From NCBI GenBank assembly GCA_017880905.1, contig JADGRO010000032.1, positions 1-64,000 of the forward strand: 64,000 bases of DNA. Direction: 5' to 3'. The notes under the pieces were generated by a model. The model did not search any database and was not told the DNA's origin. It worked only from the letters and a program-made list of their open reading frames with translations. The DNA is from Methylotenera sp. Lineage in GTDB: Bacteria; Pseudomonadota; Gammaproteobacteria; Burkholderiales; Methylophilaceae. The position numbers were made by a program, and so were the translations under genes. Shown here in pieces: positions 5,928-59,546 of this stretch; the first letter of the stretch is position 1, and every line of letters starts with the position of its first letter.

Positions 5928-6122
5928 CTATTCTGTTTCTTCAATCCAAGCCAATTGAATCGCCTCCAGTATTTTCTCTCCACAATGCTCAGGTACATCG
6001 TTAAAGCCATTCAGCGCCATGACCCAAGCCATTAAATCGGTAAAACGTATGATTTTTGGATTGGTATCCGGATATTTATCGAACAATTCCTCGGCGATTC
6101 TTTGGCTATCTGTCCACTTCAT
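5928..6122 (-). CDS. iscX: Fe-S cluster assembly protein IscX
   Basis: The 64-residue acidic protein begins MKWTDSQRIAEELFDKYPD, continues with IRFTDLM and ends EKILEAIQLAWIEE, matching IscX/YfhJ along its whole length. IscX binds IscS and iron and tunes the rate of cluster assembly on IscU. It usually closes the isc operon (after hscA-fdx); here it stands away from any isc gene and opens a minus-strand run with a membrane protein and a phosphomannomutase. A TATAAT hexamer lies about 30 bp upstream. Rightward from it lies the small RNA unit with its own terminator, so iscX probably does not depend on that promoter. Confidence 0.9.
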   Translation of the reverse strand: MKWTDSQRIAEELFDKYPDTNPKIIRFTDLMAWVMALNGFNDVPEHCGEKILEAIQLAWIEETE

Positions 6123-6188: not shown

Positions 6189-6222
6189 AAAAAAAGCCCA
6201 GCACTTTTATGGGGTGCCGGGC
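6189..6222 (-). terminator. Intrinsic terminator of the minus-strand small RNA
   Basis: Read on the minus strand, GCCCGGCAC pairs with GTGCTGGGC (nine pairs, one G-U) around a nine-base loop and is followed by seven T. The plus strand has no T-tract after the stem, so the element is directional. No protein gene on the minus strand ends here, which is what points to a small RNA. Confidence 0.85.
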
Positions 6223-6253
6223 AAGCGGGAAGCGGTTTTGGAGATATACGCTA
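6189..6253 (-). ncRNA. Putative sigma-54-dependent small regulatory RNA
   Basis: Between iscX and glyA the minus strand holds a complete transcription unit with no coding potential. A sigma-54 promoter at 6263-6280 predicts a start near 6253, and an intrinsic terminator ends the transcript at 6189, giving about 65 nt. The 5' half may form a small AGCG/CGCT stem that exposes UCUCC, a possible anti-Shine-Dalgarno patch. It is followed by an unpaired pyrimidine-rich stretch (CUUCCCGCUUG) before the terminator hairpin. No ATG-initiated frame exists. The architecture resembles nitrogen-responsive sRNAs such as NrsZ and NalA of Pseudomonas; sequence homology to them is not claimed. An alternative is a terminated leader of iscX. 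Confidence 0.6.
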
Positions 6254-6262
6254 ATTACATAT

Positions 6263-6280
6263 TAGCAATCCGCGTGCCAG
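6263..6280 (-). promoter_or_regulatory. Sigma-54 (RpoN) promoter
   Basis: The minus strand reads CTGGCACGCGGATTGCTA, which fits the -24/-12 consensus YTGGCACG-N4-TTGCW at essentially every position, with exactly ten bases between the GG and GC pairs. The predicted transcription start is near 6253. It faces a short terminated unit, not glyA. Confidence 0.8.
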
Positions 6281-6342
6281 ATATTTTATTTAATAAAAAC
6301 AATTAGTTATATTTTCATGAAGACTAAACATAGATGTTTTTA

Positions 6343-6379
6343 TGCATAAAATTAGTGCCAAGTGAACTAATTTGGTGCA
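6343..6379 (-). promoter_or_regulatory. Two NtrC-like enhancer sites upstream of the sigma-54 promoter
   Basis: Two imperfect 17-bp dyads of the form TGCAC-N7-GTGCA are present: TGCATAAAATTAGTGCC at 6343-6359 and TGAACTAATTTGGTGCA at 6363-6379. Their centres are 20 bp apart (two helical turns) and about 98 and 118 bp upstream of the predicted start, the usual distance for NtrC enhancers. Each has one or two half-site mismatches, so the assignment is inference from position and pattern. Confidence 0.5.
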
Positions 6380-6466: not shown

Positions 6467-7714
6467 ATGTTCAGCACCTCAAACACACTAAAAAAAGCCG
6501 ACCCAGCACTCGCGTCTATGATTGAGTCTGAGGTTTTGCGTCAGCATCAACACATTGAGTTGATAGCCTCGGAAAATTACACTAGCCCAGCGGTGATGCA
6601 GGCGCAAGGCTCGCAACTCACCAATAAGTATGCGGAGGGTTATCCGGGTAAGCGTTTTTATGGTGGCTGTGAGTTTGTAGATCAAGTTGAACAACTAGCA
6701 ATTGATCGCCTGAAAGCCTTATATGGTGCTGAATATGCCAATGTGCAACCACATTCGGGCTCACAAGCCAATCAAGCGGTGTACTTCAGTATTTTAAAAC
6801 CAGGCGATACCGTAATGGGGATGAATCTTGGTCACGGCGGGCATTTAACGCACGGTTCACCGGCTAATTTATCAGGAAAACTCTTCCATATTGTTGCTTA
6901 TGGTCTCAATGAAAAAGAAGAAATTGATTATGACGAAATGGAGCGCATTGCTATTGAAGCTAAGCCAAAACTGTTAATCGGCGGGGCTTCTGCCTACGCA
7001 CTGCGTTTCGATTGGGCACGCATGGCTGAGATTGCTAAAAAAGTCGGCGCGCATTTTATGGTAGATATGGCGCATTACTCCGGTTTAATCGCAGCAGGTG
7101 TCTATCCAAACCCAGTGCCACATGCCGATTTTGTAACTTCTACGACACACAAAACTTTGCGCGGCCCGCGCGGCGGTATTATTTTGGCTAAAGCCGAATT
7201 TGAAAAATCGCTTAACTCGACCGTGTTTCCTGCCTTGCAAGGCGGCCCGCTCATGCACGTGATTGCGGCAAAAGCCACTGCTTTCTTGGAAGCTTCGCAA
7301 CCTGAGTTTAAAACTTATCAAAACCAAGTGTTAAAAAATGCGGTGATATTGGCTGAATCCTTGACTGTGCGTGGCTTGCGCATTATTTCTGGTCGTACCG
7401 AATCGCATATGTTTATGGTCGATTTACGCCCAAAAGGCTTGACTGGCAAGGCTGCTGATGCTGCACTTGGTTTGGCACATATTACGGTAAATAAAAACGC
7501 GATTCCGAATGATCCAGAAAGCCCATTTGTGACGTCTGGCATTCGCATTGGTTCGCCAGCTATTACCACGCGCGGCTTTAAGGAAGCGGAAGCCAAGAAA
7601 GTTGCTAATTTAATCGCCGATGTGTTAGATAATCCGACCAATGAAGCTGTAATTGCAGCGACCAAAGCCAAAGTGCATGCACTCACAGCGCGCTTTCCTG
7701 TATATGGTGCTTAA
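6467..7714 (+). CDS. glyA: Serine hydroxymethyltransferase
   Basis: GlyA interconverts serine plus tetrahydrofolate and glycine plus 5,10-methylene-tetrahydrofolate, supplying one-carbon units and, in serine-cycle users, fixing formaldehyde carbon. The protein is 415 residues. The PLP lysine lies in [14 protein letters not shown] at Lys229, and the cofactor and substrate segments [20 protein letters not shown] and [12 protein letters not shown] are intact. I chose ATG 6467; a TTG 18 bases upstream is in frame but would add residues absent from the family. It starts a tightly spaced run with nrdR, ribD and tatD, only 5 bp before nrdR. The upstream spacer carries the oppositely oriented small RNA unit. 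Confidence 0.96.
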
Positions 7715-59530: not shown

Positions 59531-59546
59531 GCAATTTTGATGCCAA
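59531..59546 (-). promoter_or_regulatory. Sigma-54-like promoter before the membrane diguanylate cyclase
   Basis: The minus strand reads TTGGCATCAAAATTGC with ten bases between GG and GC; it departs from the consensus TGGCACG only after TGGCA. The predicted start is near 59519, 27 bp before the cyclase ATG. The match is weaker than that at 6263-6280. Confidence 0.5.

Follow-up and report, generated by a model that had tools for sequence, protein, structure and literature searches.

How methylotrophs keep methanol oxidation in step with their nitrogen supply is, to our knowledge, an open question, and the intergenic region between iscX and glyA analysed here may bear on it. The region lies near one end of a 64,000-nt stretch of DNA (the window). 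The initial annotation read it as a sigma-54/NtrC-driven small RNA unit, and the locus raises three questions: whether such an RNA gene exists, which activator controls it and which mRNAs it would meet. The reading that we favour, judged from sequence and with rather more confidence than doubt, is a conserved sigma-54-dependent non-coding RNA gene of ~65 nt that would throttle methanol oxidation under nitrogen limitation via xoxF. The sigma-54/NtrC small RNA proposed by the initial annotation proves largely right.

The putative gene is preceded by a -24/-12 element, CTGGCACGCGGATTGCTA, on the minus strand at 6280-6263, in which GG (6278-6277) and GC (6266-6265) are separated by exactly ten nucleotides. 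The core of this sigma-54 promoter, TGGCAC-N5-TTGCW, occurs a single time in the 64-kb window, against 0.18 occurrences expected from 100 first-order Markov sequences. Judging from the -12 position, transcription is predicted to start at about 6253 and to run through an intrinsic terminator hairpin (6222-6196, minus strand), whose arms at 6222-6214 and 6204-6196 form nine pairs, one of them G-U, into a tract of seven U (6195-6189). The predicted small RNA of ~65 nt (6253-6189, minus strand) has relatives in 65 further genomes and is matched over 6189-6256 by the model R1 described below. Folding of the stretch 6254-6189 yields two hairpins (z = -2.7; 2 of 200 shuffled sequences fold equally well): the terminator and a 5' hairpin (6252-6231) with an AGCG/CGCU stem and a 14-nt loop containing UAUCUCCAAAA. 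The UCUCC core of the putative pairing site is found at 6244-6240. A coding RNA was considered and rejected, the predicted RNA being without an ATG when its sequence is read; the list of open reading frames likewise holds none of at least 50 aa overlapping the RNA, which says little about so short a stretch. No Rfam family reaches its cut-off anywhere in the 64-kb window. Read-back thus recovered in place everything that had been described for the unit, namely the GG-N10-GC element, two upstream dyads, the nine-pair hairpin with its seven T and the lack of a protein frame. Elsewhere in the window, at 59545 on the minus strand, a second sigma-54-like site (TTGGCATCAAAATTGCTG) lies ~50 bp upstream of what may be an ATG start.

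The neighbouring genes are also those first proposed. Downstream and outside the unit lies iscX (5928-6122, minus strand; TIGR03412, 110 bits), to which a TATAAT box at 6157-6152, spotted by eye, belongs; on the other side glyA (6467-7714, plus strand; named from sequence) is divergent, with its ATG at 6467. A divergent upstream glyA motif was found in 53 of the 64 aligned relatives of the unit, at a distance of 290-470 bp in 52 of them; two of the 11 members without it have fewer than 200 bases upstream.

The existence of these relatives was first apparent from BLAST with 6290-6180 against 150 genomes of the Methylophilaceae, which gave strong matches in several genera. The model R1, built from 22 aligned units (that of the window included) from about the transcript start onward and excluding the promoter, matched 79 of 187 family genomes at E up to 0.01. 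Sixty-six members were recognised among these: in 14 of the 15 genomes of the genus of the window (g1), in 21 of Methylophilus (g20), in 27 of Methylotenera (g7) and in four of a further genus (g10); the 13 genomes with terminator-type matches only, below ~28 bits, were left out by eye. GG-N10-GC stands directly upstream of the RNA in 63 of the 64 aligned members, and both members outside the alignment (G087 and G099) possess the promoter. In the remaining row (L018, from G060) an insertion parts promoter and RNA, a TTGGCA-N6-TTGCT element being situated upstream of the inverted-repeat insertion. The insert itself (L018:1302-1501), ~200 bp long with 32-nt imperfect inverted ends (81%), resembles a small non-autonomous transposable element. 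As the query behind the first units contained the promoter, a better test is provided by 40 weaker matches outside the R1 building set that were fetched by R1 position: 33 are real members, all 33 with GG-N10-GC upstream, and the element was found upstream of none of the seven terminator-only matches, one of which has no upstream sequence.

The initial annotation had staked its reading on the persistence of the -24/-12 element and the terminator in related genomes; promoter, loop and terminator are kept across four genera, and the compensatory changes that it had looked for occur at four of six predicted terminator pairs. UCUCC is identical in all 46 distinct aligned 5' ends, in rows retrieved with a model that favours UCUCC. 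The AGCG/CGCU stem is common, with some alternatives, and its mean score is weakly above that of shuffled sequences (10.1 versus 8.8); folds of five members gave both hairpins in four and the terminator alone in L005. A wider search of 399 Burkholderiales genomes gave matches in 18 at E up to 0.001, and three of these 18 are Methylophilaceae; the other 15 matches are terminator-type or UCUCC look-alikes, and GG-N10-GC at the right distance is absent from them. A search for promoter plus loop returned 43 records, 23 of them Methylophilaceae, with ~17 chance matches expected by a hand estimate; the combination is present in records of Methylophilus methylotrophus DSM 46235 and Methylotenera mobilis 13. 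That the window contains a sigma-54 small RNA gene we regard as almost certain. A sigma-54-type promoter was also seen directly before a guanidine-I riboswitch (RF00442, 87 bits) in L031:1509-1682 (G133), suggesting that guanidine use may there be under nitrogen control.

Upstream of the promoter in the window lie two NtrC-type dyads, TGCACCAAATTAGTTCA (6363-6379) with 9/10 and GGCACTAATTTTATGCA (6343-6359) with 8/10 positions of TGCAC-N7-GTGCA. Their centres, 20 bp apart, lie 118 and 98 bp before the predicted start, and the former dyad recurs at a similar position in most g1, g10 and Methylophilus members. The only dyad of at least 9/10 in the 64-kb window is the one at this promoter; at least 8/10 is reached at 32 places. 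The genome to which the window belongs encodes RpoN and four full enhancer-binding proteins, among which NtrC scores 710 bits to TIGR01818 (cut-off 559) and adjoins NtrB. Control of the small RNA by NtrC in this genome is judged likely. The presence of rpoN is uninformative as a predictor of the RNA: RpoN was found in 176 of 187 family genomes, including those of genera that lack the RNA. NtrC was found in 29 of 30 chosen genomes.

The expected conservation of the enhancers holds in part. Between 60 and 125 bp before GG, dyads of at least 8/10 are present in 30 of 37 members outside Methylotenera versus one of 26 within it. By genus the counts are 17 of 19 in Methylophilus (one miss has no upstream sequence), four of four in g10 and nine of 14 in g1, where ~0.9 would be expected for the three genera together, and most members of these three genera carry the dyads mostly 97-104 bp before GG; the upstream region of L028 is cut off, which makes its dyad score meaningless. 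In 21 of the 26 Methylotenera members we find instead a palindrome TGGTTG-N4-CAACCA (at least 10/12, between -150 and -30; 0.04 expected), mostly 88-99 bp before GG with a range of 68 to 110, a count to be taken as descriptive, as the motif was chosen by eye from Methylotenera sequences and then counted there. Among g1 members, the five that lack NtrC dyads carry the same palindrome at 10 or 11/12 (three) or 9/12 (two), and one g1 and one Methylophilus member have it at 10/12 alongside an NtrC dyad; it was not found between -150 and -30 in g10 members. The enhancers named in the initial annotation are kept in most members of three genera and missing in 25 of 26 Methylotenera and five of 14 g1 members, where the palindrome occurs at or near the threshold.

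In Methylotenera NtrC appears to have retained its own site, because a dyad of at least 9/10 precedes glnA by 150-280 bp in 11 of 12 genomes, four of Methylotenera included (the miss is G105); the C-terminal helix region of Methylotenera NtrC is almost unchanged. The sigma-54 pattern used for scanning was seen near glnA in one of these 12 genomes, so the scan misses promoters. To judge from the upstream regions, another activator seems to have taken over this RNA and promoter in Methylotenera. With the RNA itself unchanged, such a difference in enhancers has the appearance of a sigma-54 promoter rewired in nature.

The initial annotation had further proposed that the UCUCC patch could pair with ribosome binding sites, possibly of one-carbon genes, and this idea fits xoxF. 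In a search of six genomes for the loop complement TTTGGAGATA, matches at ribosome binding sites included those of a PQQ methanol/ethanol dehydrogenase, pqqE, a formate dehydrogenase subunit and guaB; further matches were situated inside genes. In nearly all species examined that bear the RNA, (A)CTTTGGAGAT precedes the start of xoxF; of seven species without the RNA, six have TATGGAG or TACGGAG at xoxF and the seventh (G020) has TTTGGAGAT. Set against the RNA of its own genome, xoxF shows perfect pairing over 9-12 nt in 39 of 47 copies from 42 RNA-bearing genomes; seven of the remaining copies pair over 8 nt and one over 6. None of 372 background genes from five genomes reaches 9 nt and six reach 8, in start regions 5 nt shorter than those used for xoxF. 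The count comprises the best xoxF-like copies of each genome, more distant paralogues being left out; G063, G059 and G116 were dropped as they gave no start, the RNA of G099 was represented by L020, which has the same body, and in one G105 copy the pairing run is shifted.

Several changes in the loop are mirrored in xoxF. Both copies of G006 and three g10 genomes combine U for A before UCUCC with GGAGAA in place of GGAGAT, and in G173 another position is altered on both sides; in G042 the pairing amounts to 12 nt in all. Loop changes without a counterpart in xoxF are found in G138, G083, G111, G068, G084, G122 and G009, the last with the pairing broken at another letter than in the g10-type change. 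Shuffling the RNAs among the 42 genomes gave p = 0.014 with G-U pairs and p = 0.053 without, kinship being uncorrected in both; for G105 the second copy took the place of the best match, which pairs elsewhere. With the xoxF leader conserved as a whole, its difference from the genera without the RNA may represent a single event. A leader motif AACCCTTAGTA (or AACCTTAGTA) was seen ~20-30 bp before the start in most xoxF genes read (L246-L269 among others), in genera with and without the RNA. We put the chance that xoxF is a main target at a little better than even.

The strongest alternative accepts a real sigma-54/NtrC small RNA and places its main targets among other mRNAs (the porin-like gene near ntrC, a NosL-like gene, guaB, rpmB or many genes with GGAGA sites), the match to xoxF being a strong Shine-Dalgarno sequence inherited by descent. 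UCUCC does resemble an anti-Shine-Dalgarno sequence, and whole-duplex energy failed as evidence for a target: the values for RNA and xoxF, -14.7 to -17.9, do not single out xoxF and are unexceptional beside background medians of -12 to -14 and best values of -21 to -25. Moreover, TTTGGAGAT precedes a porin-like gene 2-3 kb from ntrC in G048, G115, G068 and G016 (the last without the RNA), NosL-like genes in G117 and G068, and rpmB in G000, G068 and G029, all named by eye. The pattern TTTGGAGAT-N2-9-ATG occurs 3-10 times per genome in seven genomes with the RNA and 1-7 times in six without, many of the occurrences being off gene starts. What this alternative accounts for poorly is that runs of 9 nt or more are so frequent in xoxF and absent from the background genes, and that loop and xoxF have changed together in G006, g10 and G173. 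We consider it possible, if unlikely.

Genes for PQQ biosynthesis were among the candidates as well. One pqqA copy in each of G048, G117, G132 and G042, and pqqE in G117, are preceded by TTTGGAGAT. Across 75 pqqA copies TTTGGAGAT is present in four and TTTGGAGA in 12, two of the 12 from G020, in which no RNA was detected and which has TTTGGAGAA at two pqqA copies. The pairing sequence is exceptional among the 75 copies, and pqqA as a general target was not upheld. The pqqA pattern itself matched 2 to 11 times per genome in 33 Methylophilaceae genomes, with varying ribosome binding sites.

A general brake on translation, comparable to the RF02278 RNAs that inhibit growth in Burkholderia, with a CU-rich RNA covering ribosome binding sites broadly, is a decidedly less probable reading. 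The two-hairpin, CU-rich layout is shared and RF02278 aligns end to end, and over-expression of ncS27 attenuated growth according to passages of PMC5688073; however, the conservation of the loop extends beyond UCUCC and includes partial co-variation with one gene, and the RF02278 scores (18.5 bits in the window, 18.4 in L019 and 18.1 in L012) are far under the gathering cut-off of 50, at which membership was rejected. Six member loci gave no Rfam match at cut-off; SdsR_RyeB, at 29.5 bits in L012 where 38 are needed, was discarded, its match extending into the promoter.

It is more improbable still that iscX has a regulated leader closed by this terminator, with attenuation and no free RNA. With a loose pattern, 15 of 64 members showed an iscX motif no more than 260 nt downstream and in the same orientation, but iscX in the window has a TATAAT box of its own, loop and terminator are conserved, and folds of the RNA stretch alone contained no alternative pairing. 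A chance assembly of motifs in AT-rich intergenic DNA, suggested by their shortness and by the abundance of 8/10 dyads in the window, is refuted by conservation, 66 genomes keeping the same order with similar spacing.

The favoured reading, a small RNA acting on xoxF, would work as follows. Upon nitrogen shortage NtrB would phosphorylate NtrC, which would bind the dyads ~100 bp upstream and open the sigma-54 promoter, so inducing a free RNA of 65 nt. Its AUCUCCAAA-type loop would pair with the Shine-Dalgarno sequence of target mRNAs and block their translation. The best-supported target is the xoxF-type methanol dehydrogenase, with (A)CTTTGGAGAT...ATG; pqqA, pqqE and the porin-like gene near ntrC are perhaps further targets in some species. 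Less methanol dehydrogenase would be made, and methanol oxidation would probably be throttled while nitrogen limits assimilation. A broader proposal is that in Methylophilaceae nitrogen status is coupled directly to lanthanide-dependent methanol oxidation by a nitrogen-starvation RNA (through xoxF, joined in some species by pqqA and pqqE), and that its activator has been exchanged, the NtrC dyad giving way to TGGTTG-N4-CAACCA at a similar distance, with RNA, sigma-54 promoter and target kept; we rate this somewhat short of an even chance. In the marine betaproteobacterial methylotroph NB0046, an OM43 isolate, xoxF transcripts are described in part of PMC5120137 as 20-fold different between nutrient-deplete and nutrient-amended conditions. 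If the proposal is true, the RNA lets methanol-eating bacteria slow their use of carbon during nitrogen shortage, and, as a single 65-nt RNA with a defined pairing site, it would allow a direct test, in named strains, of whether NtrC is linked to methanol dehydrogenase.

Nitrogen-related RNAs driven by sigma-54 and NtrC are familiar from Pseudomonas, namely NrsZ and NalA, of which NrsZ is longer than ~65 nt and processed. The present RNA is likened to them by regulation alone, from their descriptions, and it has no Rfam match at gathering score. Our literature search found no paper on a Methylophilaceae small RNA with NtrC or on a Methylotenera small RNA, and in a wider search no title or abstract start among the matches listed described the present RNA. 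In layout it resembles the RF02278 double-hairpin RNAs of Burkholderia cenocepacia, ncS03, ncS05, ncS27 and ncS62, which in passages of PMC5688073 are likewise short (three of the four 57-67 nt) and two-hairpinned, with a CU-rich unpaired stretch complementary to ribosome binding sites and predicted targets in carbon metabolism. Unlike these, it has a sigma-54 promoter with NtrC dyads, usually a single copy adjoining glyA, and the loop UAUCUCCAAA. The same passages liken betaproteobacterial double-hairpin RNAs to NmsR of Neisseria, whose CU-rich unpaired stretches are also complementary to ribosome binding sites of carbon-metabolism genes; in contrast to the present RNA, NmsR occurs in tandem copies, and sigma-54 goes unmentioned for it in those passages. 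Tandem double-hairpin RNAs with UUAUCUCCAA and an NmsR-like layout were observed in another Burkholderiales family (L396:1501-1677 and L399/L410; G218 and G262), with sigma-70-like promoters by eye and, for L396, 26.8 bits to RF02278, below its cut-off. NcS25 of Burkholderia was rejected as a relative, being described in PMC10117139 as constitutive and without sigma-54 motifs. A functional parallel is GlnZ of Enterobacteriaceae, which according to PMC9731577 lowers sucA under nitrogen limitation; the present RNA is likewise predicted to reduce a carbon enzyme when nitrogen is short. GlnZ, however, originates in the 3'UTR of glnA and has its pairing site well upstream of the start region, whereas the present RNA is a free-standing gene whose loop matches the ribosome binding site region of xoxF. 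What is new relative to these systems is that a sigma-54/NtrC promoter, linkage of the gene to glyA and a loop matched to xoxF occur together.
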